Of a stretch of 47,906 bases of DNA, positions 3 through 47,906 are shown in pieces. The notes under the pieces are model-generated. The model had not been told where the DNA came from and made no database searches. It saw only the letters and a program-made list of their open reading frames with translations. The stretch spans positions 1 through 47,906 of the IMG/VR virus record IMGVR_UViG_3300042549_008523. One strand, written 5' to 3'. This DNA comes from a virus. The translations under genes were made by a program, and so were the position numbers. The number at the start of each line of letters is the position of its first letter. Position 1 is the first letter of the stretch.

Positions 3-275
3 AACACACCATTGAATAGATTCATGGGCCTGTTTCAAAGTCAAATTTATGCACAGTTGGCAACACAATTGAGCAACAACTTGTTTACCAACCGATGTGC
101 TGCTGCAGATGGCACAGCAATCCCGGGTTGTGTGAATCCAACAACAGGCACTTTTGCTCTAGACGGCAACACAGTTACTTGGGCAAAAGCTAACGACAAG
201 GTTACACTAACAGTGGTAGATGCCAAAGGCACTGTAACTACTGTAGTTGTTCCAATTGCCAGTTTTAGTTTTTAA
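3..275 (+). CDS. csgF: CsgF-like curli assembly factor, C-terminal part (cut by window edge)
   Basis: CsgF works at the outer membrane with the CsgG pore and helps attach and nucleate curli fibres. The reading frame is open from the window edge. Its first visible residues (N-T-P-L-N-R-F, then FQSQIYAQLATQL) line up with the conserved CsgF segment that reads N-F-T-Q-A-I-Q-S-Q-I-L in E. coli, and the tail (TVTWAKANDKVTLTVVDAKG) resembles the CsgF beta-rich end. The TTG at 12 is therefore probably an internal Leu codon, not a start. A strong Shine-Dalgarno for csgG begins immediately after the stop. Identity is from motif resemblance; the adjacent CsgG supports it strongly. Confidence 0.72.
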   Translation, partial: NTPLNRFMGLFQSQIYAQLATQLSNNLFTNRCAAADGTAIPGCVNPTTGTFALDGNTVTWAKANDKVTLTVVDAKGTVTTVVVPIASFSF

Positions 276-284
276 GGAGTAAAA

Positions 285-1247
285 ATGAAAATAATCAAAC
301 TATCCTTAATCACTTTAGCAATTGCAACACTGGCTGGCTGTTCAACAGTACGCCCATGGGGTGATGCACAGATCAAAGAAGAAGCTCGAGTTAGTGAAAC
401 CATCAACAAAAGTTTTGCTAACGTGCCTAGTCCGGCTGGTCCGGCAGTGACAGTGGCTGTATATGGATTCAAAGACCTAACAGGACAGCGCAAGCCAAGT
501 AGCACATTGAGTTTGTTTAGCACCGCAGTCACACAAGGCGCTGAAGCATACTTGATGAAAAGTCTACAAGAAGTTGGCAATCGTCAATGGTTCACAGTTG
601 TTGAACGTGTTGGCCTTGACAACTTGTTAAAAGAGCGTCAGATGATCAAACAGACACGTGAGATCTATGACGGTGCTAACGCCAAGATGCTACCGCCATT
701 GCAAATGGCTGGCGTTATACTAGAAGGCGGCATCATTGACTACAACAGTAACACATTGACAGGCGGTACTGGAGCACGTTGGTTGGGTATTGGCGCACAA
801 ACTGCCTATACCCAAGACATTGTGGTTATCAGCTTACGCCTGGTAAGTGTGCAAAATGGGGAAGTATTGACCACGGTGACCGTGGAAAAAAACTTGCTCA
901 GCACTGCCGATGGCACTACAGCGTTGAAGTTTTTCAACCAGGCGACACGAGCATTTGAATTTGACAGTAGCCAGACATTTAATGAGCCAGGTAACTATGC
1001 ACTGCGTTCAGCTATTGAAACCGCAGTCATAGAATTGATCAACAAAGGTGAACGTCAAAACTTGTGGAAATTCAAGGAGAAACCCAATGAGTTGGTTCAA
1101 AAGGAAACCTCACGTGAAGGAACCGCCCAAGCACCTTCCACACCATCAGTACAGTCCAGCAACGGAAAGGTTGTTGGAGGAAACAAAGAAGCGGGTAGTT
1201 GGAATGCTACCGACGGATCAGGCAACAGGATCCAAACAACAAAATAA
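285..1247 (+). CDS. csgG: CsgG-like outer-membrane curli secretion lipoprotein
   Basis: CsgG forms the nonameric outer-membrane channel that exports curli subunits. The 320-residue protein has a lipoprotein signal with lipobox L-A-G-C (Cys19), followed by the family pattern VAVYGFKDLTGQRKPS, WFTVVERVGLDNLLKER, a Gly-rich AGVILEGGIIDYNSNT strand, GARWLGIG and a late region ending near residue 265 (WKFKEK). The remaining 55 residues are Ser/Thr/Gln-rich and look like an added tail, so the protein is longer than E. coli CsgG. AAGGAG lies 6 nt before the ATG. It is preceded by CsgF and followed by a curlin-repeat gene, so secretion of those neighbours is the likely role. Family assignment is firm; its use by a phage is inference. 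Confidence 0.93.
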   Translation: MKIIKLSLITLAIATLAGCSTVRPWGDAQIKEEARVSETINKSFANVPSPAGPAVTVAVYGFKDLTGQRKPSSTLSLFSTAVTQGAEAYLMKSLQEVGNRQWFTVVERVGLDNLLKERQMIKQTREIYDGANAKMLPPLQMAGVILEGGIIDYNSNTLTGGTGARWLGIGAQTAYTQDIVVISLRLVSVQNGEVLTTVTVEKNLLSTADGTTALKFFNQATRAFEFDSSQTFNEPGNYALRSAIETAVIELINKGERQNLWKFKEKPNELVQKETSREGTAQAPSTPSVQSSNGKVVGGNKEAGSWNATDGSGNRIQTTK

Positions 1248-1278
1248 GGATACTGGTTAATATACCGGAGCAAACAAA

Positions 1279-2067
1279 ATGAAAAAAACAATATTAGCAA
1301 TTGTATTAGCCGCAACACTACCGGCTTTTGCACAAACTGCTGTGTCAGCACCTGCTGCACCAACAATACCTACAATGGCTACAGTTAGCCCAAATGCAAC
1401 AGCCGCCCTGGCCATTGCCACAACCAACCGTATCTTCATCGATCAAAGCGGTGACAATCCTAATGTCAATATGACACAAGATGGTACTGGTAATAAAGCT
1501 GGTTCAACTACTCGTCCAGTATACCTACGTGGTATTGATCAAACAGTTGTCACTCGTCAAATTGGCGTAGGCAATGAAATTATGTTAGAGGCATCGAACG
1601 ACACTACAGGTAGTGGTAAAGGTGTAAACATCACCATTCAACAGATCGGTGATAATAACAAAGTTGATGCAGCATTAGGATACGGCAATGCTTCAACCGG
1701 CACTCCGACATTAACAGCAGCCAATGCTGCAGATATTAATTGGAAGTTCACTGGCGACAGTAACGACCTACAGTTCCGTGGTACAGGCACTGACTTGAAG
1801 AGTGCTATCGATGTATCAGGTGACAGCAACGTATTCCGTATTGATGCTATTGGTGACAAGCATACACAAACTATCAAGGTAGTTGGTGATACTAACACAT
1901 TCAACATCAATCAACGTAGTACCGGTGCTGCTGGATCCACTATCTGGGTTGACTTGGCTGGTAACGGCAATAGTTTAACTATGAGCCAAACCGGAACAAT
2001 TGACAACGTTATCAATATCAAGAGTGTAAGCAACAGCGGTACATTCAATATCACGCAGAAGAACTAA
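1279..2067 (+). CDS. Secreted curlin-repeat protein (CsgA/CsgB-like fibre subunit)
   Basis: This is a predicted secreted protein of 262 aa with a Sec signal (MKKTILAIVLAATLPAFAQ). The mature part is rich in Gln, Asn, Gly, Ser and Thr and contains repeated strand-turn units of the curlin type, in which polar Q-x-G-x-x-N or G-x-x-N-x-x-x-I motifs recur about every 20-25 residues: IDQSGDNPNVNMTQDGTGN, VTRQIGVGNEI, IQQIGDNNKV, VSGDSNVFRI, VVGDTNTFNI, LAGNGNSLTMSQTG. Such units form amyloid-like beta-solenoid fibres in CsgA. The repeats are less regular than in E. coli CsgA. It sits directly after csgG with its own ribosome site (CGGAG). Most likely a substrate of the CsgG pore; fibre formation is inferred. 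Confidence 0.78.
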   Translation: MKKTILAIVLAATLPAFAQTAVSAPAAPTIPTMATVSPNATAALAIATTNRIFIDQSGDNPNVNMTQDGTGNKAGSTTRPVYLRGIDQTVVTRQIGVGNEIMLEASNDTTGSGKGVNITIQQIGDNNKVDAALGYGNASTGTPTLTAANAADINWKFTGDSNDLQFRGTGTDLKSAIDVSGDSNVFRIDAIGDKHTQTIKVVGDTNTFNINQRSTGAAGSTIWVDLAGNGNSLTMSQTGTIDNVINIKSVSNSGTFNITQKN

Positions 2068-2076
2068 GGAGCAGCA

Positions 2077-3246
2077 ATGAGAGTTGCTGCTCTTATCGCG
2101 GGCCTGCTGCTGGCTACATCAGCATGGGCAGATATCGGTAGTGTTACTGAATCTACGGGCACGGCCATTATCAAACGCGGTAAGGATACTATTCAAATTG
2201 CCAAAGGCACTGAAATCAAAACCAATGATCGAGTTGAAACTAAAAACGGTCGGGTTAAGATTGTTTTTAAAGATGCTACAAATGTCACTGTTACTGAGTC
2301 GAGTAGTCTTATTATCGATGATTTTGTATATGATCCCAAAAGCGGTGTTGGCAAGTTAGGACTCAAAGCAGCCGCTGGCACCGTGCGTTATGTATCGGGC
2401 GCGATTGCCCGAGATCCCAAAAATGTAAAAATCAACACACCCACAGCAGCAATTGCTGTTCGTGGCACAGACTTTGTCATGGCTGTTAGTGAAACAGGTG
2501 CCAGTATGATCATGCTGATGCCCACTTGCGAACTAGAACAGAACGTAAACCTAAAAGGTCTAAGTTGCGGTAGCGGTGCCATTGATGTAGAAACACCCTC
2601 TGGCATAGTTCAATTGACTCGACCTTATCAAGCCACCCTGGTTGAAACACTAAACGGTGTTCCAAGTCCTGCTGTCATTGTCGCTCTTAATGGCATGGCC
2701 ATTGGAAATAATCTAATGGTTAGTCCACCTCAAACAACTACCGGTGTAAATGTAATAGCTGCTGCTCGTGCTGCCGCAGTAGCTACAGGTGATGCTAAGA
2801 AAGATGATAATAAAGATAAACGAGACGAAAAAGACGATGCTAAAGATCAAGAAAAGCAACATGTAGCAGGCAAGCAAGAAGGTGAGAGTAATAGGTCCCA
2901 AAGACAAAGACGAAGTGCCAATGAAGGTGACGACGAAGCTGCCAACGGAACCAAGGTAGGAGTTGATGCAAAGACAAACAAAAATTCGTTAGCCAATGAT
3001 GTAGCAGCAGTAGGCGAAACAGACAATCCCTATGTCAAGAAACTGTTCAAAGATAAAAGTGAAACACAACAGGTTGGTTGGATGTATGAAAGTCTGAGTC
3101 CCAACAGCCGTAACTATGCCAGCGTGATCATGCCATTGAACACACAAGCACTGGTTGTTGTGACCCAAGACATGCAGACCAGCAGCTGGAATTTTTCAGC
3201 AGGCAAACCACAAGGACAGATTGTCATCAATCAGAACTTCAGATGA
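2077..3246 (+). CDS. Secreted FecR-domain protein
   Basis: The 389-residue protein starts with a signal peptide (cleavage near residue 18, after SAWA). Residues about 20-145 form a FecR-type domain: a beta-rich segment with GTEIKTNDRVETKNGRVKIVF and the hallmark TPTAAIAVRGTDFVM. Two Cys near residue 150 (PTCELEQ, LSCGSG) could form a disulfide. Residues 230-290 are a highly charged Lys/Asp/Glu-rich linker, and the last 80 residues form a separate globular region ending in a predicted strand. In bacteria, periplasmic FecR proteins are often neighbours of CHASE2 cyclases, which matches the cyclase downstream. AAGGAG precedes the ATG. Function here is unknown; a periplasmic sensing or scaffold role is inference. 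Confidence 0.82.
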   Translation: MRVAALIAGLLLATSAWADIGSVTESTGTAIIKRGKDTIQIAKGTEIKTNDRVETKNGRVKIVFKDATNVTVTESSSLIIDDFVYDPKSGVGKLGLKAAAGTVRYVSGAIARDPKNVKINTPTAAIAVRGTDFVMAVSETGASMIMLMPTCELEQNVNLKGLSCGSGAIDVETPSGIVQLTRPYQATLVETLNGVPSPAVIVALNGMAIGNNLMVSPPQTTTGVNVIAAARAAAVATGDAKKDDNKDKRDEKDDAKDQEKQHVAGKQEGESNRSQRQRRSANEGDDEAANGTKVGVDAKTNKNSLANDVAAVGETDNPYVKKLFKDKSETQQVGWMYESLSPNSRNYASVIMPLNTQALVVVTQDMQTSSWNFSAGKPQGQIVINQNFR

Positions 3247-5081
3247 AAACGTTATTCTTTGCTTTATTGTTGTTGTGCTCAAACGCATTTGCTGCTATTA
3301 CTGACGGCAAGTTTGGTATCAATCAAATTTTTGATGTACAATACAGTTGGAATGGTAATACACTAAACGCCAGCAATTTCATTGCTCCTTATAACAAAAA
3401 CTTTCAAACTGTTACAACTACAGCAGGACAGTATTTTCAGTTCTTCGCCAGTACTACTAATCCAGGAAAGTATGGGTTAAAGTTAATGAACAGTAATGGC
3501 ACACCGCACAGTATTGTACACGATCACGGTGATATTACAGCTTTAGGTAGTGGTGCTATTTTCTACATTGGTTCGGGATTTTTTGGTAATGTAATCACTA
3601 CTCAACAAGGTTACAACTACGGTGCTAGTGCTCAGTTTACCAACATGGATACTAGCGTTACTGCTAGTGATTTAAACAACTATACCTATGCTAGTTCAAC
3701 ACCGTTGGCAGCAGGGCAGACTGCGGCTCCAGCAGGTCCTCCGCCATCTGATTGGAAAATGATTAGAACCAACAGCACTCCGGTTGTTATCAGCAACATA
3801 TTTCCTACCAGTAACAACAGTCCCCCAGGTGAAGGTGCCACACAGGCATTTGACGGCAACACCAATACCAAGTATTTGAACTTTGACAAAAAGAACGCAG
3901 GTGTTACTGTAAGACTAAGTCAAGGTCGGGTGGTTCAAAAATTCACTATCACTACAGCCAATGATTTTAGCGGTCGTGATCCTACTAGTTATAAACTCTA
4001 CGGATCAAACGACGGTGTTAACTGGACTTTGATCAAACAAGACAGTTTGAGCCTAAGTGAGTCAAGATTCTGGACTAGTCCTGAAATAGCAACAGGCAAT
4101 ACCACTGCCTATGTCTATTACTTTATATTGTTCCCTACAACCAAATCGGGCGATGGTTGCGGGTTGAACTGCGATTCGATGCAGATTGCTGAAGTTACAT
4201 ACTACTATGATTTGAACGATGGAGTGACCAGCACGGATCAAGCACCTGGGGCTACTCCAGCTAACCCGGGTCAAGCAGGCAGTGTTTGTAGCGATTGTTT
4301 TAGCAGCAACATTACAACAACTCAACAAGCCTTATTAGATGTTGCTAGAGCAAGACGCAATGCCATCAGTGTAGGTAACAGAATAGACCTAAATGTTCAG
4401 GGCCCTGGTGCTGTGGTAACCATTGAACAAGTGGGCAGTTATAATAGAATACAAGGACTGGGCGGTGCCAATACCAATGCACACATTGGTGGTTTTTCAA
4501 ACACAGTTGACGTCAAGCAAGGCGATACACTGAGTGGTAGAAATTTAATAGAATTATCTGTGCAAGGAAACGGCAATGTGGTTACACTGAGCCAAGCTAG
4601 AAATACTGCAACAGGTGCAGTTGATGCACAAGAAAGTGGCGGACACGTTTCTCGCGTATCCATCACTGGTGATGTGGGAACTTACACGTTCCGTCAAGGC
4701 AATGATGGTGGTGCTGCCAGCGGACATTTCTTAAACTACACCATGCAAGGCAACGGTGGCACACATAGAGTCACACAGAGTAATAACGGTGAAAAGCTGG
4801 CGTTTATCAGTATCACGGGCAACAACACCAACGAAACCATTGTTCAGAGTGGTACAGGTAACCACTTTTTGGATTTGACCATGACAGGAAATGGAAACGG
4901 AGCAACAGTGACACAGACTGGGTCTGCAACACAAAAAGCAACAATAAACTTGACAAATGCCGGAGGACCTAGTACAATAACACTGTTACAACAGGGTAGT
5001 GTTTCCCAAATTTATTCAATATCTCAAAGTTGTGCAAATCTTTCTGGCTGTTCGGTTAGTGTAACACAGGGCACACCTTGA
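3243..5081 (+). CDS. Secreted protein with discoidin (F5/8C)-like domain and curlin-like repeats
   Basis: The 612-residue protein overlaps the FecR gene stop by 4 nt. A signal peptide (MKTLFFALLLLCSNAFA) precedes an unknown beta-rich domain (about 20-175). Residues about 180-330 look like an F5/8 type C or discoidin domain: GATQAFDGNTNTKYLNF, then VRLSQGRVVQKFTITTAND, then DPTSYKLYGSNDGVNWTLI. From about 375 to the end it carries curlin-type units with Q-x-G and G-N-G-N patterns (LNVQGPGAVVTIEQVGSYN, LSVQGNGNVVTLSQ, MQGNGGTHRVTQSN, MTGNGNGATVTQTG). Discoidin domains often bind glycans or membranes, so this could be an adhesive tip on a curli-like fibre. Domain reading is fairly confident; the role is inferred. 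Confidence 0.75.
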   Translation: MKTLFFALLLLCSNAFAAITDGKFGINQIFDVQYSWNGNTLNASNFIAPYNKNFQTVTTTAGQYFQFFASTTNPGKYGLKLMNSNGTPHSIVHDHGDITALGSGAIFYIGSGFFGNVITTQQGYNYGASAQFTNMDTSVTASDLNNYTYASSTPLAAGQTAAPAGPPPSDWKMIRTNSTPVVISNIFPTSNNSPPGEGATQAFDGNTNTKYLNFDKKNAGVTVRLSQGRVVQKFTITTANDFSGRDPTSYKLYGSNDGVNWTLIKQDSLSLSESRFWTSPEIATGNTTAYVYYFILFPTTKSGDGCGLNCDSMQIAEVTYYYDLNDGVTSTDQAPGATPANPGQAGSVCSDCFSSNITTTQQALLDVARARRNAISVGNRIDLNVQGPGAVVTIEQVGSYNRIQGLGGANTNAHIGGFSNTVDVKQGDTLSGRNLIELSVQGNGNVVTLSQARNTATGAVDAQESGGHVSRVSITGDVGTYTFRQGNDGGAASGHFLNYTMQGNGGTHRVTQSNNGEKLAFISITGNNTNETIVQSGTGNHFLDLTMTGNGNGATVTQTGSATQKATINLTNAGGPSTITLLQQGSVSQIYSISQSCANLSGCSVSVTQGTP

Positions 5082-5112
5082 TACAAAGTAATTGCTAAGA
5101 ATAGCGAACGGT

Positions 5113-5119
5113 GTAAATA
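5113..5119 (+). promoter_or_regulatory. Late-type promoter motif GTAAATA
   Basis: This NTAAATA box resembles the T4 late -10 element (TATAAATA). It lies 18 nt before the ATG of the small secreted protein gene, leaving room for a short leader that carries TAGGAG. A weak sigma70-like TTGCTA lies 16 nt upstream of TAAATA, so host-polymerase use is also possible. Confidence 0.4.
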
Positions 5120-5137
5120 CAGCATTAGGAGAACACT

Positions 5138-5431
5138 ATGCACAAATTTATTTTAGGTGTTCTACTCTTACCCGCATTGGCCCACGCACAGCCCGTAACC
5201 GTAGAAAAACCAGTCATCTGCGATACCCCAAAAATAGTAATAGAAACACTGAGTGGGGCCGGTTATAGAGAACAGCCTTTTTGGGCAGGCAATGACGAAA
5301 CTAGTCGTTACATACTGCTAGCCAATGAAAAAACTAAATCTTGGACTATTGTGCAATTTAATAATAACATCGCCTGTGTTTTAGGCACTGGTGAAAATCA
5401 CAGGCAGATATTCTTGGGCTCGAAAACTTAA
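5138..5431 (+). CDS. Small secreted protein of unknown function
   Basis: This 97-residue protein has a clear Sec signal (MHKFILGVLLLPALAHA, cleavage around residue 17). The mature part has two Cys (VICDTP and IACVLG) that could form one disulfide, and alternating strands such as SRYILLANEKTKSWTIVQF. I do not recognise the family. It has its own ribosome site (TAGGAG) and lies between the discoidin/curlin gene and the cyclase, so it probably belongs to the same exported module. A CsgE-like or CsgH-like helper was considered, but I see no convincing motif for either. Confidence 0.6.
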   Translation: MHKFILGVLLLPALAHAQPVTVEKPVICDTPKIVIETLSGAGYREQPFWAGNDETSRYILLANEKTKSWTIVQFNNNIACVLGTGENHRQIFLGSKT

Positions 5432-5437
5432 TAAATA
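5431..5437 (+). promoter_or_regulatory. Late-type motif ATAAATA just before the cyclase start
   Basis: ATAAATA lies 1 nt before the first ATG (5439) and 4 nt before the second (5442) of the cyclase gene, and overlaps the end of the preceding gene. No Shine-Dalgarno is visible. It belongs to a recurring NTAAATA-before-start pattern in this window, but here it could be chance in AT-rich sequence. Confidence 0.3.
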
Positions 5438-5438
5438 G

Positions 5439-7505
5439 ATGATGAAAAAAATATTATTATCACCTTGGACTGCATTGCTCACATTGAGCATTGTGATACT
5501 GCTCCGATTCTTTGATCCCAGTTTTGTCGAATCTGTTCGATTGCGTTATTTTGATCAATTGATCACTGGTCAACCAGCAGCAACGGTTCCGGTACACACT
5601 GTAAACATCGACGAAGAATCTTTGAACAAGTATGGACAATTTCCGTTTCCTAGAGACATTTATGCAAACATAATACATTCATTATATGAAAGAGATGCAG
5701 GACTAGTGGTATTCAACATACTGATGCCGGAGTCTGACAGGTTTAGGCAAGATGGTGCCTTGGCACAGATTCTAAAACAGTATCCTGTGGTGTTACCAGC
5801 ATTGGGACATACACAAGACAAAAATACACCACGTGCCCCGGGTGTCAGCGTGATAGGAACTGATCCCGCTGGCCTAGTTGTAGAGTACCCAGGCATAATA
5901 AGCAGTGTAGGGCTACTCAATAACAATGCCGCAGGAGTTGGCGTTGTAAATACTTTTCCAGAAATTGATGGGGTTGTCCGTCGTATGCCTCTGGTGATAT
6001 ACAGTAACGAAAAATTACATCCTGGCTTGGCCTTGGAGACATTGCGTGTAGCTGCCAACGATCCCAGCTTTCAAATCAAAATTGGCAACGCTGGCGTTGA
6101 AGCACTCAGAGTTCCAAAATTTGGAAAAATTACAACCGACGACATTGGTAGAGTTTGGATAGACTGGCGTGCCGCTCCCAAAGAACACAGCCTGGTGGGT
6201 CTTCCCAAAAGCTTCAACAATGAAATTGTTGTTGTAGGTCTTAGTGCTGCGGGTCTTGCTAACCCAATTGCAACTGCACGTGGAGAAGTTTGGCCGCATT
6301 ATTTGCAAGGTGCAGTACTGGGCACTATGATAAACAAGTCAAATATACAGCGACCTGGCTATGCAGATGACTTAGAAACAATAGCTATTTTATTAGCAGG
6401 CTTACTATTATTATTTTTAACAAGGTGGACTTATGTTGGGCTTGCCGCAGTGGTTGTGTTGGTCGGTGGTGGCATTGCTGGCAGCATTTATGCTTACAGC
6501 CATCTTTTATTCTTATTCGATATTACTGCCTTTGCAGTTGGCACAACTTTGGTCGCTTTGCATGCCTATGGCGTCAAGTTTGTAAGTGAGTTCTTACAAA
6601 AGTCTGCTATCAAGAAACAGTTTGGATCATATGTTAATCCTGTTATTGTTGAACGACTACAAAAGGATCCCAGCTTTATTAAACTAGGAGGCGAGAAGAA
6701 AGACTTGTCAATCATTATGAGTGACATGCGTAACTTTACAGGCCTAGGTGAAACCTATGGTGATGACGTTGTGGCATTTACCAACACCATGAACCGTTAC
6801 ATGACTGCTATTGCTGAGCCTATCCTACGCAACAACGGATGCTTGATCAAGTTTATTGGTGATGCTTCATTACACGTTCACGGTGCTCCAATTCAAGAAG
6901 AGCAAGATCCTGACCACGTGTTGGCCGCTGTTCGTACAGGTCTTGAAATGTTACATGCTGTTGAACTGTTTAACATCGAACTTACAAAAGAAGGCAAACC
7001 CTTAGTAGGTTGCGGGTTAGGTATTAACACAGGCCCTACACTAATTGGTAACATTGGCAGTAAGGACCGCTTTGGTTATGATGTACTAGGTGACTCAGTC
7101 AGCTTGACAGCTCGTCTAGAAGGACAGACCAAAAACTACGGTGTGTTGATTATTATCAGTGAGTTTACCAATGCTCGTGTAGGTGACAACTACTTTACTA
7201 TTCCATTGGATTGTATTGCAGTTAAAGGTAAGACCATTGGTGTCAATATCTTCACAGTGTTCTATAATCCAGATGCCACTGTGGCAGCAGACTGGATCAG
7301 TGCAAGAGAGCATCATGAACTAATGTTGCAGTACTATCGTGAACAGCAGTGGGATCGTGCAGCACTGTTCTGCGAAGAATTAAAGGGCGAATTTGACGGT
7401 AAAATGGATGACTATTATACACTATGGCAAGAGCGAATTGCTGAGATGCGTACTAGAGATCTTCCTGCAGATTGGGACGGTACCTACCGGGCTACTTCAA
7501 AATGA
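5439..7505 (+). CDS. CHASE2-domain class III adenylate/guanylate cyclase (membrane)
   Basis: The 688-residue protein has an N-terminal TM segment (about 10-25), a periplasmic CHASE2 sensor (about 30-290, opening with the LRYFDQLITGQP and VHTVNIDEESLNKYGQFPFPRD region), three TM helices (about 310-385) and a cytoplasmic class III cyclase domain (about 420-600). Visible catalytic residues are metal ligands D429 (in SDMRNFT) and D475 (in KFIGDAS), adenine-selecting K471 and D548, and transition-state R559. The usual Asn of the VNxAxR motif is Ser555. K/D pairing suggests ATP and hence cAMP as product. A helical region follows (about 620-688). The position after FecR and curli genes matches bacterial FecR-CHASE2 neighbourhoods. 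Activity is unproven because of the Asn-to-Ser change. Confidence 0.9.
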   Translation: MMKKILLSPWTALLTLSIVILLRFFDPSFVESVRLRYFDQLITGQPAATVPVHTVNIDEESLNKYGQFPFPRDIYANIIHSLYERDAGLVVFNILMPESDRFRQDGALAQILKQYPVVLPALGHTQDKNTPRAPGVSVIGTDPAGLVVEYPGIISSVGLLNNNAAGVGVVNTFPEIDGVVRRMPLVIYSNEKLHPGLALETLRVAANDPSFQIKIGNAGVEALRVPKFGKITTDDIGRVWIDWRAAPKEHSLVGLPKSFNNEIVVVGLSAAGLANPIATARGEVWPHYLQGAVLGTMINKSNIQRPGYADDLETIAILLAGLLLLFLTRWTYVGLAAVVVLVGGGIAGSIYAYSHLLFLFDITAFAVGTTLVALHAYGVKFVSEFLQKSAIKKQFGSYVNPVIVERLQKDPSFIKLGGEKKDLSIIMSDMRNFTGLGETYGDDVVAFTNTMNRYMTAIAEPILRNNGCLIKFIGDASLHVHGAPIQEEQDPDHVLAAVRTGLEMLHAVELFNIELTKEGKPLVGCGLGINTGPTLIGNIGSKDRFGYDVLGDSVSLTARLEGQTKNYGVLIIISEFTNARVGDNYFTIPLDCIAVKGKTIGVNIFTVFYNPDATVAADWISAREHHELMLQYYREQQWDRAALFCEELKGEFDGKMDDYYTLWQERIAEMRTRDLPADWDGTYRATSK

Positions 7506-7636
7506 TTGATCAATTGATGAATGAATATATGCGTCAAATGATAGTGTTGTATTACTGGCCTTATTTTGTCGTAGGCAACGGCGACAACTTTAAAAACATT
7601 ATGCTATGTAGGGTCAAACGGCAAAACATCTTTTGA
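7502..7636 (+). CDS. Possible 44-aa small protein overlapping the cyclase stop
   Basis: This short frame begins with ATG overlapping the cyclase stop as ATGA and runs 44 codons to TGA. The peptide has a hydrophobic middle (IVLYYWPYFVVG) that could be a short membrane segment and a basic C-terminus. The ATGA overlap suggests translational coupling, and the only alternative is about 185 nt of untranslated sequence. Its 3' end coincides with the -35 of the next promoter. No homologue is known to me; coding status is uncertain. Confidence 0.33.
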   Translation: MIDQLMNEYMRQMIVLYYWPYFVVGNGDNFKNIMLCRVKRQNIF

Positions 7637-7661
7637 CACCGCATTAAAAATACCTTACACT
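7633..7661 (+). promoter_or_regulatory. Sigma70-type promoter (TTGACA-17-TACACT)
   Basis: A perfect -35 TTGACA (7633-7638) and -10 TACACT (7656-7661) are separated by 17 nt, upstream of the DUF3307 gene (ATG at 7690, ribosome site AAGGAAA). This implies transcription by unmodified host polymerase, probably early or constitutive. Confidence 0.75.
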
Positions 7662-7689
7662 AAAGTAAGTTTATATATCAAGGAAACTA

Positions 7690-8064
7690 ATGTTCGAAGC
7701 CCTATTCATAATGCTGTTGTTACAGATCAAGCATTACTATGCTGATTTTGTAATTCAGACCTATGCACAAACGGTTCGAAAAGGCATTTATCGTGATCCA
7801 GTGGGTATAAGTCATACCTTGGATCACATAGTCGGAAGTTTGGTAGTATTATTTCTTGCGAGTCTTTTTATACCCATGTCGTTACCACTTATGGTAATTT
7901 TGTGTTTCGTCGAAGGTGTAATACACTATCATATTGATTGGACCAAGGTACACTTTGGTTGCAAAGACAACACCAAACCACTATTTTGGAATCAGTTTGG
8001 ACTAGATCAGTTGGCACACCAAGTCACTTATCTAGCAATGATTCCTTTGTTAATCGTCGCCTGA
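7690..8064 (+). CDS. DUF3307-like integral membrane protein
   Basis: This 124-residue hydrophobic protein has about three to four TM segments. Conserved polar positions match the DUF3307 pattern: H-Y-Y-A-D-F-V-I-Q near residue 15, H-x-x-D-H-I-V-G near 40, H-Y-H-I-D-W-T-K near 77, and F-G-L-D-Q-L-A-H-Q near 105. The biochemical role of the family is unknown to me. It has its own sigma70 promoter and the ribosome site AAGGAAA. Its 3' end overlaps by 15 nt the 3' end of the convergent minus-strand gene. Confidence 0.72.
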   Translation: MFEALFIMLLLQIKHYYADFVIQTYAQTVRKGIYRDPVGISHTLDHIVGSLVVLFLASLFIPMSLPLMVILCFVEGVIHYHIDWTKVHFGCKDNTKPLFWNQFGLDQLAHQVTYLAMIPLLIVA

Positions 8065-8397
8065 TGCGTCTTTGATTTCCTGCTGAGTTGCTTGGCGCTT
8101 GCCGATGGGTTTTTCATCAACCACTTGATTGATCTTTTCTTCGGCAATAACTCGTTCTCTTTCAATGGTCTTGCCACGTAGTTCCATTACAGTTTCTACT
8201 TTTTGATTCAACCTTATAAGGTCGTTGTCCAACATACGAATACGATCAATAAGAGCAATGAGAGTTCCATTGGCTTGTCCTATAACAGGCTTGATTTCTG
8301 TAGTTACCCATGTCCACACGTAATATATGAAATACCCCATTCCTCCAGCAGCAACAATAGGAAATCCGTACTTGTTGATCATTTCTGCAATATCCAT
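8050..8397 (-). CDS. Small holin-like membrane protein with coiled coil
   Basis: This 115-residue protein has one N-terminal TM segment (YGFPIVAAGGMGYFIYYVWTW) and then a long helical, probably coiled-coil, region (LIALIDRIRMLDNDLIRLNQKVETV) with a charged tail. The layout recalls BhlA-type or one-TM holin-like phage proteins. A shorter relative with a similar N-terminus is encoded upstream on the same strand (8729-9004), suggesting duplication. It is the last gene of a four-gene minus-strand set. Holin activity is only a guess; membrane anchoring is clear. Confidence 0.62.
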   Translation of the reverse strand: MDIAEMINKYGFPIVAAGGMGYFIYYVWTWVTTEIKPVIGQANGTLIALIDRIRMLDNDLIRLNQKVETVMELRGKTIERERVIAEEKINQVVDEKPIGKRQATQQEIKDASGDD

Positions 8398-8400
8398 ATA

Positions 8401-8550
8401 TTATTCCTTGTGTGCTTGATTAAGAATTTGATATACTTGTTCGTACGTATCTTCGATCATTTGCAAGTACTGCTCGCTGATCTCGCTAGTTTCTAATACA
8501 ATTAAATCTTTTGCCAGATTGCACTGTAGATTTTTAATAGAATCTTCCAT
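8401..8550 (-). CDS. 49-aa small helical protein
   Basis: The frame runs from ATG at 8550 to a TAA at 8401-8403 and encodes 49 residues. AGAGGG lies about 8 nt before the start. The start overlaps the stop of the upstream gene as TAATG, typical of coupled phage genes. The protein is acidic and helical (ISEQYLQMIEDTYEQVYQIL). I recognise no family. Confidence 0.6.
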   Translation of the reverse strand: MEDSIKNLQCNLAKDLIVLETSEISEQYLQMIEDTYEQVYQILNQAHKE

Positions 8551-8729
8551 TATTTGTACCCTCTGATAAATTTTAGTATTGGATCTACTTTGACCAGCTG
8601 AACTTGCCCATCTATGTTTTTAACTTCGAAGTGATCCCCGGCATTCCACTCTAGCCTGTCGATATTGATCTCTCTGTCTAGAATGATCCTATCTTTGCGA
8701 AGATCCCAATCGTAGTCCACGTATTTCAT
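8550..8729 (-). CDS. 59-aa small protein
   Basis: The frame from ATG at 8729 to TAA at 8550 encodes 59 residues and overlaps both neighbours by a few nt (TAATG junctions). The sequence is charged and beta-like (YVDYDWDLRKDRIILDREI, then LEWNAGDHFEVKNIDGQV). No family is recognised. Regular overlap on both sides is the main support. Confidence 0.6.
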   Translation of the reverse strand: MKYVDYDWDLRKDRIILDREINIDRLEWNAGDHFEVKNIDGQVQLVKVDPILKFIRGYK

Positions 8730-9004
8730 TAGTCTTTCCTTTGATCAACTTGATCTGCACGAGCAATCCGATCGTAGTCTGGTTGTAGGCCCAGGGCGTG
8801 ACTGACCTTGACATCAATACGCTGTAGTTGGTTTGTCATGGTGTCAACCCTGCTGTCTAGGCCCTTGATGATTCCGCCCATGCCGTTGACACTGCTTGTT
8901 ACTCCAGCTAAAATAAATTTTAGGGTTAAGAATACAAAGTATCCAGCAGCCATAGCACCTGCTATAGGAAAACCCAATTCTGCTACTAATTTTAAAAAGT
9001 CCAT
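8729..9004 (-). CDS. Small holin-like membrane protein
   Basis: This 91-residue protein has one N-terminal TM region (LGFPIAGAMAAGYFVFLTLKF) and a helical segment (LDSRVDTMTNQLQRIDVKVSHAL). The N-terminus (MDFLKLVAELGFPI) parallels that of the protein at 8050-8397 (MDIAEMINKYGFPI), so the two are probably paralogues. It is the first gene of the minus-strand set. No clear Shine-Dalgarno is visible; instead an ATAAATA box lies 5 nt before the ATG. Holin function is a weak inference; the genuine lysis set lies elsewhere (23345-27049). Confidence 0.62.
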   Translation of the reverse strand: MDFLKLVAELGFPIAGAMAAGYFVFLTLKFILAGVTSSVNGMGGIIKGLDSRVDTMTNQLQRIDVKVSHALGLQPDYDRIARADQVDQRKD

Positions 9005-9009
9005 ACTGT

Positions 9010-9016
9010 TATTTAT
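9010..9016 (-). promoter_or_regulatory. Late-type promoter motif ATAAATA (minus strand)
   Basis: Reading the minus strand, ATAAATA ends 5 nt before the ATG of the holin-like gene. With the usual distance from a late -10 box, transcription would start at or near the start codon, giving a leaderless mRNA. No ribosome site is visible. Confidence 0.45.
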
Positions 9017-9042
9017 TTTAAATGGTAAAACTCAAGTAGTAC

Positions 9043-9071
9043 TTGACAAACGGACAAATTTGTGGTATAAT
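9043..9071 (+). promoter_or_regulatory. Consensus sigma70 promoter with extended -10
   Basis: TTGACA (9043-9048), a 17-nt spacer and TATAAT (9066-9071), preceded by TGG (extended -10), match the bacterial consensus perfectly. It drives the gene starting at 9099. It is divergent from the late-type motif at 9010-9016, so this 95-nt gap holds back-to-back promoters. Confidence 0.88.
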
Positions 9072-9098
9072 GTACTTTTAACAAAGACAATCTACACC

Positions 9099-9494
9099 AT
9101 GTCCATGCACTTGCACCACCCTAGTCTGAGCCTCAATGGCAAGAAAAAAGGTAAAGTCAAATTCCGCAATGCAGCTGAAGCACAAAAAGCTCGAGAGTTA
9201 AATGCAGAATGGCAAGCTCTGCAAAAAAAGTGGAATGTAGAAGCTGAAACAAAACGTCAACGGCGTGCAATGAGTGCAGCGCCTTTGGATTATAAATTGT
9301 CTACGCCGCCAGGCAGAACTACCAGCACCAGTATCAAAAGCGTCAACACTGGTGAAGTAGGCGTGTCAACACATCGTGCTAGTCCTGTATACACTGGCAC
9401 CAAAGTAAAAGGTATCGGTACTATGCACAAAAGCAATGCAGTTCCTATTTTCAGTGACGAAGAAGCTGTTGCAATTGCTACAATGCGACGATAA
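9099..9494 (+). CDS. Basic small phage protein of unknown function
   Basis: Starting at ATG 9099 (or 9105), this encodes about 131 residues. The frame is open further upstream, but a consensus promoter and a divergent gene occupy that space, so the later start is right. The N-terminal half is Lys/Arg-rich and helical (SLNGKKKGKVKFRNAAEAQK, then ELNAEWQALQKKW); the C-terminal half is Ser/Thr/Gly-rich and ends DEEAVAIATMRR. I do not recognise a family. A strong promoter and a following terminator make this a monocistronic, probably highly expressed, early gene. Confidence 0.72.
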   Translation: MSMHLHHPSLSLNGKKKGKVKFRNAAEAQKARELNAEWQALQKKWNVEAETKRQRRAMSAAPLDYKLSTPPGRTTSTSIKSVNTGEVGVSTHRASPVYTGTKVKGIGTMHKSNAVPIFSDEEAVAIATMRR

Positions 9495-9515
9495 CAAATT
9501 TGCACACGATTCAAT

Positions 9516-26416: not shown

Positions 26417-27049
26417 TCAATGACCTAGAACGTGAAGTGCGTGATTGTAGTGTTTGATACGATCTTCTAGACCAATGGTACCACCGTTGATTCTTTTGGT
26501 CAAAGTCAAAATATCACCAGGGTCTGCCCATTTGTTCAAGCTGTTGGTTTCCCAGAACCAACAAGCACTTTGCACAGCACCTTCAAATGTTGCCAAGTAG
26601 TCTGGTATGTCATTGATATCTGTTTCTATACTGTCAGCAAACGCTTGGTAGTTGTTACGACCAGTCAATTGAATTAGGCCTCGGCCACAAAAGCGCCAAC
26701 CGTCACCAGTGGCCTCTGGACCATTGCCCATGCGTCCACCGTAGACTCTGTTGGCAATTGCTTCTTGTCTGTTGGGCATGGCTGCAAATTGTGCCGCTAT
26801 TTCATCCGATGGGAAATACTTGGGAAAGATCTTTCGCAGGGTAGCTGCTTTGTAATTTAAGTTTTCTTTAAGCATCCTGAAGTTACCGCTTTCGTGTGCA
26901 CATTGAGCAATAAATGCAGCAACTCTTTGCGGAGTGTTGATATCGTAATCAGGCAGGCATCTTTCTAAAGCCGAATACCAGTAATCTAAATACGGGTTAC
27001 CTGGAAGTAGTTTGCTTAATTGATCTCGAGTTAGTATAAAATTTGACAT
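26417..27049 (-). CDS. Endolysin, GH19 chitinase-like family
   Basis: This 210-residue enzyme has the GH19 pattern: RVAAFIAQCAHESGNFRMLK (catalytic Glu in H-E-S), then YGGRMGNGPEATGDGWRFCG and RGLIQLTGRNNYQ, with C-terminal TKRINGGTIGLEDRIKHYN. GH19 phage enzymes cleave the peptidoglycan sugar backbone. No signal peptide is present, so release depends on a holin. AAGGAGAATCA precedes the ATG. Spanin and holin candidates follow on the same strand. Very confident. Confidence 0.92.
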   Translation of the reverse strand: MSNFILTRDQLSKLLPGNPYLDYWYSALERCLPDYDINTPQRVAAFIAQCAHESGNFRMLKENLNYKAATLRKIFPKYFPSDEIAAQFAAMPNRQEAIANRVYGGRMGNGPEATGDGWRFCGRGLIQLTGRNNYQAFADSIETDINDIPDYLATFEGAVQSACWFWETNSLNKWADPGDILTLTKRINGGTIGLEDRIKHYNHALHVLGH

Positions 27050-30484: not shown

Positions 30485-32794
30485 ATGCCACAAATGAGAC
30501 CCAATGGCGAGATTGAAGAAATTATACAAAAAGCTGGGGAAGCAGCAAGAACACTGAAACACGAGTATGTAACTCTAGAACATTTGGCTATGGCTATATT
30601 TCAATATAGTCCGTTCAAGGACATACTTAGAAAATCAAACTTTGATGTTGACGGACTAGTAACTGATCTGGACCAGTACCTTAAAAATCGAGCCGAGCTG
30701 ATTTCAAAAGAACCAGTGTCCCCTAGAAAAACTCAAGCACTGGAGCGAGTGTTTAATCGAGCACTAACGCAGGTTTTGTTTCATGGCCACACTAGAATCA
30801 AAATTGTAGATCTGCTGTTGAGTATCAGCCTTGAAACCAATAGTTATGCAGCATATTTTATGCTCAAATATCGTCTTGATCGTGCTACAATATTTGAACT
30901 ATACAAAAAACTCAACACCGACGACGATCTTAACTCACCAAATGGAAATACAGGAAAAGCAGACGAAGTGTTGGAAGAATTTTGTACCAATCTAAACGAC
31001 ATGGCCGAAGCAGGCGAGATTGATCCAATCATTGGCCGCGAAAACGAACTGCAAGAAATGAGTCATATTCTAGCCAAACGCAACAAGGCCAATATTCTCA
31101 TGGTTGGTGATCCTGGTGTTGGCAAAACCATGCTGGCAGAAGGCCTGGCAAAAAATATTGTAGAAGGAAACGTTCCAGAATATCTTAAAGGCTACACTGT
31201 TTACAATCTGGACATTGGTACCTTGTTGGCAGGCAGCAAATACCGCGGCGAGTTCGAAGAAAAGTTTCAACATGTCATCAAAGCCTTGACTATTAAAGGC
31301 AAGACTATTCTGTTTATTGACGAAGCACATCAAATGCGCGGAGCCGGATCCAACAGTTCCAGCAGCGTTGATTTTAGCAACATGATCAAGCCGGCCTTGA
31401 CCAAAGGCAAAATCAAGGTCATTGCTAGTACAACTTGGGACGAGTATACTCAAAGCTTTGAAAAGGACCGAGCACTGATGCGTAGATTCCAACGTATCAC
31501 AGTGGATGAACCCAGTGCAGCCGATGCAAAGCTGATTCTCAAAGGTATCCGTAAAAACTTTGAAAAGTTCCACGGTGCTCAGATCACCGACGAAGCAGTT
31601 GATGCAGCAGTTGACTACAGTGTGCGCTATCAAACTGACAAAAAGTTGCCAGATAAAGCAATTGACTTGATTGACACAGCCAGCGCCAAACAAAAAATAA
31701 TTGACGGACAAGTTGACAATTTTATTGTTACCAAGGCTCATATTGTTGAAGCATTGAGTCGTGCTACAAAAATTCCAGTAGATCAGATTGGTGCAGAAGC
31801 TACCAGTGGACTAACTTCACTGGAAAGTACTATACAACAAAATCTATACGGCCAAGACGAAGCAGTCAGCAGTGTGTTGGAAAAGATCTATGTCAGCAAG
31901 GCTGGTATGAAGTCCATCAACAAACCAATCGGTAGCTTCTTGTTTTTAGGACCAACAGGTACTGGTAAAACAGAATTGGCCAAGTTGTTGAGTGCCAATC
32001 TCAGTATGAAATTGGTAAGATATGACATGAGTGAATACCAAGAAAAACACAGCCTGGCCAAGTTGATTGGTGCGCCTCCGGGTTACGTAGGTTATGACGA
32101 CGGTAATTTGGGAGGCGGCCTGTTGATCAGCTCACTGGAACAAAATCCCAACTGTATCATACTGTTTGATGAAATTGAAAAAGCTCATCCAGATGTTAGT
32201 AATATCCTATTGCAGTTTATGGACGAAGGTTTTGTCACTGGCAGCAACGGTAAGAGAGCAGATGCTCGCAACAGTATTCTTATCATGACCAGTAACTTGG
32301 GTGCCAGCGACAATGAAAAGAACACCATTGGATTTGGTGAAAGTCTGCAACGCACAGGAGAAGACGACAAAGCAGTCAAAGAATTCTTTAAACCTGAATT
32401 TAGAAATCGTATTGACGCTATTTGCAAGTTCAAGCATTTGGATCAGTTTAGTATGAAAAAGATTGTTGCCAAGTTTGTTACTGAAATCAATGATTTGCTC
32501 AGCGACAAACAAATCAAACTTCGGTTGACTGAGTCTGCTGTTGACTATCTGGTTGAAAAAGGCTTTGATAAGAAAATGGGTGCCAGACCTTTGACCCGAA
32601 CAATCAACGACAAGATCAAAGTTCCTATCAGTAAGAAAATTCTTTTCGAGAGTCTCAACAACGGATCTATTATTAATATCGATTGTGTCAACAACGAGTT
32701 GACATTTAATGCAACACTGTGCAATTTGTATCTTCCTTTAGAAGTCACTGCTACTACATCTGTGGACGAAAATGGATTCATCAGACTGGAGTAA
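30485..32794 (+). CDS. clpA: ClpA-like AAA+ unfoldase
   Basis: This 769-residue protein has a Clp N-domain-like part (about 1-145), AAA-1 (Walker A GDPGVGKT; Walker B ILFIDEAHQMRGAG) and AAA-2 (GPTGTGKT; CIILFDEIEKAHPDV). There is no ClpB-type middle coiled coil, so the layout is ClpA. In AAA-2, NTIGFGES precedes KEFFKPEFRNRID, in the position of the ClpP-binding I-G-L/F loop of E. coli ClpA. It could therefore dock on host ClpP and redirect proteolysis. No phage ClpP is in this window. It is in an apparent operon with dnaJ. Confidence 0.92.
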   Translation: MPQMRPNGEIEEIIQKAGEAARTLKHEYVTLEHLAMAIFQYSPFKDILRKSNFDVDGLVTDLDQYLKNRAELISKEPVSPRKTQALERVFNRALTQVLFHGHTRIKIVDLLLSISLETNSYAAYFMLKYRLDRATIFELYKKLNTDDDLNSPNGNTGKADEVLEEFCTNLNDMAEAGEIDPIIGRENELQEMSHILAKRNKANILMVGDPGVGKTMLAEGLAKNIVEGNVPEYLKGYTVYNLDIGTLLAGSKYRGEFEEKFQHVIKALTIKGKTILFIDEAHQMRGAGSNSSSSVDFSNMIKPALTKGKIKVIASTTWDEYTQSFEKDRALMRRFQRITVDEPSAADAKLILKGIRKNFEKFHGAQITDEAVDAAVDYSVRYQTDKKLPDKAIDLIDTASAKQKIIDGQVDNFIVTKAHIVEALSRATKIPVDQIGAEATSGLTSLESTIQQNLYGQDEAVSSVLEKIYVSKAGMKSINKPIGSFLFLGPTGTGKTELAKLLSANLSMKLVRYDMSEYQEKHSLAKLIGAPPGYVGYDDGNLGGGLLISSLEQNPNCIILFDEIEKAHPDVSNILLQFMDEGFVTGSNGKRADARNSILIMTSNLGASDNEKNTIGFGESLQRTGEDDKAVKEFFKPEFRNRIDAICKFKHLDQFSMKKIVAKFVTEINDLLSDKQIKLRLTESAVDYLVEKGFDKKMGARPLTRTINDKIKVPISKKILFESLNNGSIINIDCVNNELTFNATLCNLYLPLEVTATTSVDENGFIRLE

Positions 32795-45365: not shown

Positions 45366-45652
45366 ACGATATCTTAAAAGGAATATTTGCTTGGATACGA
45401 AATGATTTTCATAGCCATCCTTTGCGTTTTTGTATCGAGTTGCTTGCTTGGGCTATTAGTATTGGCTGTAGCATCACAATGGCCCTTACAGTCCCTACGC
45501 CACCTCTTATATACCTGTATCCTATTTGGATTGTTGGTTGCAGCATGTACGCTTGGGCTGCTTGGACTCGTAAAAGCTTTGGCATGATTGCCAATTATAT
45601 GTTGTTGGTCACCATTGACACAGTAGGACTAGTTAGGATGATAATCAATTGA
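45362..45652 (+). CDS. Small membrane protein (GTG start)
   Basis: Starts with GTG overlapping the previous stop (GTGA), giving 96 residues. Three TM helices are expected (about 23-44, 49-68, 73-95), with an amphipathic N-terminus (DILKGIFAWIRNDF). The stop overlaps the TTG start of the polymerase. No recognised family; the location beside DNA polymerase may be simply operonic. Confidence 0.6.
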   Translation: MNDILKGIFAWIRNDFHSHPLRFCIELLAWAISIGCSITMALTVPTPPLIYLYPIWIVGCSMYAWAAWTRKSFGMIANYMLLVTIDTVGLVRMIIN

Positions 45653-47906
45653 GTTACGTTGACGCACTATTTTCCAAAGACGAAGACCGGATCTATGTAG
45701 TGGAACGAGTAGATGGCCGACGGATATACAAAGAATATCCAGCCAACTACATTTTTTACTACGACGACCCTAGAGGCAAATTTCGTAGCATCTACGGTAC
45801 ATCTGTCAGCAGGTTCAGCTCTCGTAGCGGCAAAGAGTTTTATAAAGAACTAAAATCACATAACAAGAACAAGTTGTGGGAATCTGACATCAAACCGCTG
45901 GTCAGATGTTTAGAGGAAAACTATTTGGGAAAAGAATCTCCTAAACTGCAAGTGGCATTCTTCGACATTGAGGTTGACTTTGATCTGGTAAAAGGATTCA
46001 GTCGGCCCGAAGATCCATTTAATCCTGTTACTGCAATTTCTGTGTACTTGCAATGGATGGACAAACTGATCACATTGGTAGTTCCTCCCAAAAGTTACAG
46101 CTGGGAAAGTGCAGAAGAAATTTGCAAACAGTTTGACAACTGCTATCTGTTTGCAAAAGAAGAGGACATGATCAAAACATTCCTTGATCTTATTGAAGAT
46201 GCAGATATCCTGAGCGGGTGGAACAGCGAAGGATTCGATATTCCTTATATGGTAATGCGTACCATGCGAGTATTGAGCAAAGACGATACCCGGCGCTACT
46301 GCTTGTGGGATCAGTTCCCTAAGAAAAGAATGTTTGAAAGATTTGGTGCAGAAAATATCACGTTTGATCTGATTGGTCGAGTGCATATGGACTATATGCA
46401 ACTGTATCGCAAATACACATACGAAGAGCGTCACAGCTACAGTCTAGATGCCATTGGCGAATACGAACTAGAAGAACGCAAGATCCAATACGAAGGCACT
46501 CTAGATCAACTGTACAACAAAGACTTTCCCAAGTTTATCGATTACAACAGGCAAGACACATTGCTGTTGGCCAAACTGGATAAGAAACTGAGATTTATCG
46601 ACCTGGCCAATGAATTGGCACACGACAACACAGTGTTGCTGCCCACTACCATGGGTGCAGTAGCTGTTACCGAGCAGGCCATTATCAACGAAGCACATCA
46701 ACAAGGTTTAGTAGTTCAAAACAGGAGTAGTTCAGATGATGAAGATACGCAAGCGGCAGGTGCCTACGTTGCTTTCCCCAAAAGAGGCGTCCACGAGTAC
46801 ATTGGGGCAATTGATATTAACTCGCTCTATCCCTCGGCTATTCGTGCCCTCAACATGGCATGCGAAACAATTGTTGGACAAATCAGACCAGACAGAACAG
46901 ACAAATACATAGCCGACAAAATAGCTGCTGGATCAAGTTTTGCCGATGCATGGGAAAACATGTTTGGTAGTTTGGAATATACCAGTGTAATGAATATGGA
47001 ACCTGGTACTGAAGTCACCATTGACTGGGAAGGTGGCGGTAGTGATACCATGATGGCAGCAGATGTATGGAAGTTGATATTTGAAGGCAACCAGCCATGG
47101 ATTATCAGTGCCAATGGAACTATTTTTAAATACGATGCCAAAGGCATAGTACCCGGTCTATTGGAGCGTTGGTATGCTGAAAGAAAAGATCTGCAAGCAA
47201 AGAAAAAAGAAGCAACCACTGCCGAAGACAAAGCGTTTTGGGACAAGCGGCAGTTGGTTAAGAAGATTAATCTCAACAGTTTGTATGGTGCTATTCTTAA
47301 TCCTGGCTGTAGGTTTTTTGATAAGCGAATCGGCCAATCCACCACCCTCACAGGTCGAGTCATTGCTAGACATATGGACGCCTTTGTAAATGAATGCATC
47401 ACTGGTGAATACAACCATGTAGGCGATGCTGTCATCTACGGCGACACAGACTCTGTTTATTTCAGTGCTTGGCCTGCGGTCAAAGACGATGTGTTGTCTG
47501 GCAAAATGGAATGGAACAAAGAAATTTGCTTACACTTGTACGACACCATTGCCGACCAAGTTAACGACAGTTTTCCAGGATTCATGGAACGAGCATTCCA
47601 CTCACCAAGAAGCATGGGCGAACTGATCAAAGGTGGTCGTGAACTGATTGCTGCCAAAGGATTGTTTATTAAGAAAAAGCGATATGCTGTACTGATTTAC
47701 GATCTAGAAGGACAACGACTAGACAAAGACGGCAAACCTGGAAAAGTCAAAGCCATGGGTCTAGACTTGAAGAGGTCAGACACACCCAAGGTGGTACAAG
47801 ACTTTCTTAGTGAATTGTTGTTGGCTGTGTTAACCGGCGCAGAAAAAGAAGAAATATACAGTCGTGTATTGGAATTCAAAATTGCATTCCAGGAAAGACC
47901 AGCCTG
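45649..47906 (+). CDS. 43: Family-B DNA polymerase (T4 gp43-like), C-terminus beyond window
   Basis: The frame opens with TTG at 45649, overlapping the previous stop, and runs off the right edge after about 752 residues (T4 gp43 has 898). No ATG fits without losing conserved N-terminal sequence; an AGGATG-like stretch upstream may aid initiation. Exonuclease motifs: FFDIEVDFD (D106, E108), GWNSEGFDIPY (Exo II) and YNRQDTLLL (Exo III). Polymerase motifs: A, DINSLYPSAIR (D389); B, KKINLNSLYGA; C, YGDTDSVYF (D599, D601). All catalytic residues are intact, so this is an active proofreading replicase. It works with the gp44-like clamp loader in this window. Confidence 0.97.
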   Translation, partial: MSYVDALFSKDEDRIYVVERVDGRRIYKEYPANYIFYYDDPRGKFRSIYGTSVSRFSSRSGKEFYKELKSHNKNKLWESDIKPLVRCLEENYLGKESPKLQVAFFDIEVDFDLVKGFSRPEDPFNPVTAISVYLQWMDKLITLVVPPKSYSWESAEEICKQFDNCYLFAKEEDMIKTFLDLIEDADILSGWNSEGFDIPYMVMRTMRVLSKDDTRRYCLWDQFPKKRMFERFGAENITFDLIGRVHMDYMQLYRKYTYEERHSYSLDAIGEYELEERKIQYEGTLDQLYNKDFPKFIDYNRQDTLLLAKLDKKLRFIDLANELAHDNTVLLPTTMGAVAVTEQAIINEAHQQGLVVQNRSSSDDEDTQAAGAYVAFPKRGVHEYIGAIDINSLYPSAIRALNMACETIVGQIRPDRTDKYIADKIAAGSSFADAWENMFGSLEYTSVMNMEPGTEVTIDWEGGGSDTMMAADVWKLIFEGNQPWIISANGTIFKYDAKGIVPGLLERWYAERKDLQAKKKEATTAEDKAFWDKRQLVKKINLNSLYGAILNPGCRFFDKRIGQSTTLTGRVIARHMDAFVNECITGEYNHVGDAVIYGDTDSVYFSAWPAVKDDVLSGKMEWNKEICLHLYDTIADQVNDSFPGFMERAFHSPRSMGELIKGGRELIAAKGLFIKKKRYAVLIYDLEGQRLDKDGKPGKVKAMGLDLKRSDTPKVVQDFLSELLLAVLTGAEKEEIYSRVLEFKIAFQERPA

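Follow-up and report, generated by a model that had tools for sequence, protein, structure and literature searches.

The window, by which we mean the whole 47,906-nt stretch of viral DNA analyzed here (IMG/VR record IMGVR_UViG_3300042549_008523), carries at 3–7505 a curli-type secretion and fibre module tied to a CHASE2 cyclase. The genes for CsgF, CsgG, a first curlin-repeat protein (CUR1), a FecR-domain protein, a second curlin-repeat protein (CUR2), and the cyclase lie collinearly on the plus strand, and Pfam and profile matches confirmed this run as it had been read in the initial annotation. The csgF gene (3–275) is cut by the window start and encodes the C-terminal 90 aa, matching Pfam CsgF at 8.5e-8 (profile positions 62–132) and phrog_35372 at 2.2e-16. 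It is followed by csgG (285–1247), encoding the outer-membrane pore lipoprotein (Pfam 1.3e-49; alignment to solved E. coli CsgG, 1.1e-43), the gene for CUR1 (1279–2067), a putative fibre subunit, the FecR gene (2077–3246; Pfam FecR 2.2e-9, phrog_37870 1.3e-60), and the CUR2 gene (3243–5081; Pfam F5_F8_type_C 2.7e-10). The cyclase gene (5439–7505) encodes a CHASE2 sensor, membrane segments, and a class III cyclase domain (Pfam CHASE2 7.1e-35, Guanylate_cyc 5.9e-14; phrog_35576 1.8e-205 over the full length). Signal-peptide-like N-termini are present in both curlin proteins, the FecR protein, and a 97-aa protein encoded between CUR2 and the cyclase, and dN/dS values of ~0.01–0.2 across most module parts indicate purifying selection. 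With adjacent CsgG and CsgF, secreted curlin-repeat proteins, and FecR and cyclase following, this is a phage type VIII secretion system (T8SS) module, and the cultured phages Melnitz and HTVC008M share its order, as do tens of IMG/VR contigs. Both the curli-type reading and its tie to the cyclase were right.

The curlin repeats are weak in single sequences: CUR1 matched Pfam at 0.014, and CUR2 as a single sequence gave no Pfam match to Curlin_rpt. Family profiles built from relatives (IMG/VR and genome-contig loci, labelled L plus a number) matched 8c50, a curlin-repeat protein of solved structure, at 1.5e-4 for CUR1 and 7.8e-16 for CUR2, and 17 of 38 CUR2 relatives matched Pfam Curlin_rpt (best 7.6e-15). 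CUR1 contains three Q.G..N motifs against a shuffle mean of 0.11, a count reached in 1 of 2000 shuffles, and its model is all-beta with a predicted local distance difference test score of 81. CUR2 comprises an N-terminal beta domain, an F5/8C domain at aa 170–328 (~3750–4226), and a curlin solenoid at aa 378–612 (~4374–5078). The modelled F5/8C region superimposes on galactose-binding CBM32-type structures with Z-scores of 12–15 and a root-mean-square deviation of 2.1–3 over ~135–145 residues; it is a discoidin-like beta-sandwich of the CBM32/F5-8C fold, and glycan binding is predicted for it. Residues 345–612 were modelled as a beta-solenoid of SufB/SufD type by structure comparison, a likeness that does not show kinship with Suf. 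Fold-level support for the curlin assignment comes only from the sequence profiles and the CUR2 solenoid model.

The N-terminal domains of CUR2 differ among its 38 relatives, with F5/8C in 13, PA14 in 2, and GLEYA in 1; the HTVC008M copy carries PA14 (2.7e-6). Compared with L020 and L027, the N-terminal part of the window protein is 27–28% identical and the curlin part 50–66%, whereas against L007, L009, L012, L018, and L022, which have F5/8C, the corresponding values are 77–90% and 50–75%. Because the contrast reverses between these two sets, the two parts evolve as separate modules, and CUR2 may be described as a putative adhesin on a curlin stalk. The module literature searched makes no mention of PA14 or discoidin domains. 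The CUR2 gene is split in L017 and the FecR gene in L007 (11741–12340), through sequencing error or decay.

In relatives with a complete CsgF, the N-terminus contains an F-K-N-P-x-F-S-G segment, which in the window would lie beyond its edge. The CsgG lipobox Cys19 is invariant in 18 phage sequences, and the csgG dN/dS is 0.03–0.11. Window CsgG is 40% identical to that of HTVC008M, 44% to that of Melnitz, and ~40–52% to cellular relatives. Alphaproteobacterial csg operons have the csgF-csgG-curlin order in common with the window. Eighty loci on bacterial genome contigs consist of csgF, csgG, and curlin genes without FecR or cyclase, barring five exceptions: L060, L066, and L069 (short marine metagenome-assembled genome (MAG) contigs), L073 (only 3 kb long, carrying part of a FecR gene), and L138. 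Since no FecR, cyclase, or paired membrane-protein genes of the kind described below were found within 10-kb flanks of bacterial csg loci, FecR and the cyclase are phage additions. L138 is 142,125 bp long and was binned into a 'Sphingobacteriales' MAG. On it, the phage-type module of csg genes, FecR, and cyclase and the membrane-protein pair lie alongside UvsX, a DnaB-like helicase, thymidylate synthase, and other phage replication genes; it is probably a T4-like phage genome misbinned into a bacterial MAG.

The hydropathy of the FecR protein revealed no cytoplasmic part or second membrane segment. In the cyclase, a motif tally and alignment to solved cyclases located the metal, substrate, and transition-state residues Asp429, Asp475, Lys471, Asp548, and Arg559, with Ser555 (GDSVSLTAR) in place of the transition-state Asn of class III cyclases. 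The Ser type (GDSVS) occurs in most relatives (21 jumbo-clade sequences) and in Melnitz; a second type in relatives has GDAVNLASR, and HTVC008M is among the sequences that keep the Asn. The proposal in the initial annotation that second-messenger levels are altered is still plausible, the Ser555 replacement making it uncertain. L004 and L005 are 81% identical in CHASE2 and 53% in the cyclase domain, with L004 and the window at 63% and 98%, respectively; sensor and output thus recombine independently, GDSVS and GDAVN domains being exchanged on interchangeable sensors. The window-type cyclase domain is strongly constrained, as judged by 89–99% identity among relatives with dN/dS ≤0.1; it may make cAMP. 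In L042, L043, and L051–L053, additional genes lie between the second fibre gene and the cyclase, and a pooled scan of module gap genes returned glycosyltransferases, a RimK-type ATP-grasp protein, a class 3 lipase (L053), and PhoX.

Two small paralogous genes on the minus strand, TM-B (8050–8397; phrog_18771 2.2e-32) and TM-A (8729–9004; phrog_18771 5.8e-30), encode single-transmembrane (TM), coiled-coil proteins that had gone unremarked in the initial annotation, as had the F5/8C domain in 3243–5081 and the 97-aa open reading frame (ORF). The function of their family, phrog_18771, is not annotated. Queries with both proteins in the phage collection retrieved exactly the six Melnitz and HTVC008M csgG records. 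A search of IMG/VR with TM-A alone gave 65 loci, 57 of which contain csg-module genes; among the other 8, seven are cut by a contig end close to the match, leaving L204 as the only locus that is module-free over ~20 kb. In the marine phages both genes lie directly 5′ of csgF; in the jumbo clade they lie on the opposite strand past the cyclase, except in L030 and L054, where they are upstream of csgF. The syntenic proteins of HTVC008M, Melnitz, and the window share a length of ~85–134 aa, a single TM segment, and a coiled coil, and the motif DR[IV]RMLDND is invariant in the TM-B family alignment. By these patterns, TM-A and TM-B are core, obligatory parts of the module, undescribed as such before. 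Pfam detected no kinase domain in them, such as the published 'histidine kinase before csgF' would have; by position, the pair probably corresponds to what Wittmers et al. list as 'HK, sometimes two'. A DUF3307 membrane-protein gene (7690–8064, plus strand; Pfam 5.2e-8) is 3′ of the cyclase in the window and L027, and in nearly all relatives is found 5′ of csgF and has a separate TAAATA element.

The exact T4 late element TATAAATA does not occur in the window; in HTVC008M, it stands directly ahead of csgF. We used the shorter TAAATA as a late-element proxy, with shuffles as the control; it is a consensus match rather than a mapped promoter, and the counts were taken over related, non-independent sequences. 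Of 53 relatives, 51 have TAAATA near the start of csgF, where shuffles gave a mean of 11.1 and a maximum of 17. All 52 relatives scored for DUF3307 have it near that gene, and 18 of 30 have it near the start of the cyclase gene (shuffle mean 5.3); none has it at csgG (0/53) or fecR (0/50). In the window, 11 of 52 genes have the element upstream, among them structural genes (9565 and 11554); random positions gave 1.9. The plus-strand copy at 5432–5437 is immediately 5′ of the cyclase gene, another (5114–5119) lies 24 nt ahead of the 97-aa ORF (5138–5431, plus strand; no assigned function, present in a minority of loci), and a minus-strand copy (9010–9015) is immediately 5′ of TM-A. The pattern fits a single late operon from csgF to the second fibre gene plus a separate cyclase start. 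Because the T4-type late element precedes csgF in nearly all relatives, late expression of the fibre operon is probable.

The DNA polymerase encoded at 45649–47904 is most similar to those of Sinorhizobium phage Phosso (469 kb; 52%) and Agrobacterium phage Atu_ph07 (490 kb; 46%), followed by those of other phages of 340–360 kb, and the ClpA-type ATPase at 30485–32794 has the same nearest records. IMG/VR contigs of 250, 327, and 383 kb carry the module together with the same polymerase at 61–87% identity. On these grounds, the window is assigned by sequence comparison to a T4-like jumbo phage, of which it is a fragment. The literature searched, which is incomplete, contains no earlier mention of jumbo phages carrying the module. 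A CsgG search of 50,697 phage records matched only Melnitz (4 records), HTVC008M (2), and a 1.5-kb Salmonella fragment; the last, from Salmonella phage S.Kent (1499-bp record), was set aside as probably host csgG. An Rfam scan and a tRNA search of the window gave no matches, and no host-linked record was found.

The initial annotation had judged the gene combination worth checking in phages; it is not novel, being present in Melnitz and HTVC008M and published for pelagiphages. Zaragoza-Solas et al. (2020; PMC7029224) described this operon and suggested 'sibling capture' as its purpose, and Wittmers et al. (2022; PMC9599517) described FecR and adenylate cyclase as module partners in myo- and podoviruses. 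The latter report the accessory genes CsgE, CsgC, and CsgD as absent in phages, for which we made no dedicated search. The module of pelagimyophages and HTVC023P-type podophages, with HTVC008M as its cultured example, has the same csgF-csgG-curlin-FecR-curlin-cyclase order and two small membrane genes, there 5′ of csgF. The window differs in its jumbo T4-like lineage, in a CBM32-type domain instead of PA14 on the second fibre protein, in the membrane pair beyond the cyclase on the opposite strand, and in its DUF3307 partner. Melnitz resembles the window in gene order and in the GDSVS cyclase motif, but its second fibre protein is only 341 aa, compared with 612 aa. Tominaga (2020; PMC7198788) noted curli genes in the T4-like marine Bacteroidetes viral genome TARA_ERS488589_N000003 and proposed aggregation; the portion of that text searched names three curli genes and reports no cyclase, FecR, or membrane pair. 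None of the papers searched joins CHASE2, curli, and phage. What is new is a jumbo-phage lineage variant with previously undescribed parts and features: the CBM32-type second fibre protein, the late element, the membrane pair as core components, sensor-cyclase recombination, and the Ser-type cyclase.

We consider the best explanation, at about an even chance, to be a T8SS and adhesion module with which the phage coats the infected cell late in infection with sugar-binding, curli-like fibres. The CsgG outer-membrane pore and its CsgF cap would be produced late, and the two curlin-repeat proteins would be exported through the pore. The discoidin-type domain on the CUR2 solenoid could then allow fibres on the infected cell to attach to glycans on nearby cells or particles, holding prospective hosts, or debris of the lysing cell, near the progeny, as in sibling capture. 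The secreted FecR protein, in the periplasm, may act on the CHASE2 sensor as its ligand or partner; the sensor would report envelope state or export to the cytoplasmic cyclase, with the small inner-membrane coiled-coil pair (8050–9004) as an obligatory companion. The adhesion reading is the best supported because the export machinery, the signal-bearing curlin proteins, and the exchangeable carbohydrate-binding-type domains are all conserved, and the adhesion or aggregation suggested in the initial annotation fared best of its functional proposals. Several points weigh against it. The curlin repeats of the window proteins are diverged, and Foldseek returned no match below E 0.001 for the CUR1 model; the Ser555 replacement suggests that the window cyclase may be weak or inactive; Melnitz-infected cells showed no clumping in cytograms or transmission electron microscopy (TEM) (Buchholz et al. 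2022; PMC9004378); and a role in lysis would also fit the late element and the holin-like character of the membrane pair.

Lysis timing is the main rival and, in our estimate, an unlikely one: CsgG and CsgF would form a pore that, with the membrane pair as holin-like partners, determines when the cell lyses. A pinholin-like role of this kind was put forward for Melnitz CsgG by Buchholz et al., and the late-type element, the obligatory linkage of the pair to the module, and weak matches to the holin family phrog_4898 in 22 of 27 TM-B relatives (best 6.3e-5) and 11 of 24 TM-A relatives agree with it. The match in the window protein, however, is confined to ~20 residues of the membrane segment, CsgG is located in the outer membrane, and a separate endolysin is encoded apart from the module (26417–27049, minus strand; phrog_181 3.4e-78). 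The premise of the proposal, that csgA and csgB are missing, is contradicted by the Melnitz record itself, which annotates two curlin-repeat genes, conserved here. Exchanged adhesive domains would be unexpected in a lysis pore and are left unexplained. About as improbable is a broader possibility, that the module is a distinct trans-envelope device unlike bacterial curli, in which the obligatory, holin-like TM pair, the secreted FecR protein, the pore of CsgG and CsgF, curlin fibres tipped with lectin domains, and an exchangeable CHASE2-cyclase reporter would act together late, linking fibre export with the end of infection and sensing both.

Superinfection exclusion, raised in the initial annotation and, for pelagiphages, by Wittmers et al., would have the fibre coat shield receptors from competing phages. 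Surface-exposed fibres are compatible with this, but the element before csgF is late-type, not early, and variable glycan-binding domains suggest attachment over masking; we regard it as distinctly less likely than a lysis role. Still more doubtful is an uptake pore, in which CsgG would admit large solutes to a starving host: the module as published (PMC9599517) showed no CsgE-type gate, but CsgF and the two secreted curlin proteins, which are conserved and evolve under purifying selection, would go unexplained. An assembly chimera of bacterial csg and phage DNA, feared across 7500–9500, is excluded with near certainty because the junction from the cyclase to the membrane pair (5439–9005) is collinear in ~20 independent IMG/VR contigs, the module being present also in complete cultured-phage genomes and nothing found in the chimera's favour.

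The module is now known from jumbo phages besides pelagiphages. If the adhesion reading is true, an adhesive, possibly amyloid, coating of infected cells would alter planktonic bacterial aggregation and phage host-finding. The question of adhesion versus lysis, which dates from 2020, can be approached directly through the lectin-type domain, the late promoter element, and the obligatory pair of membrane proteins.

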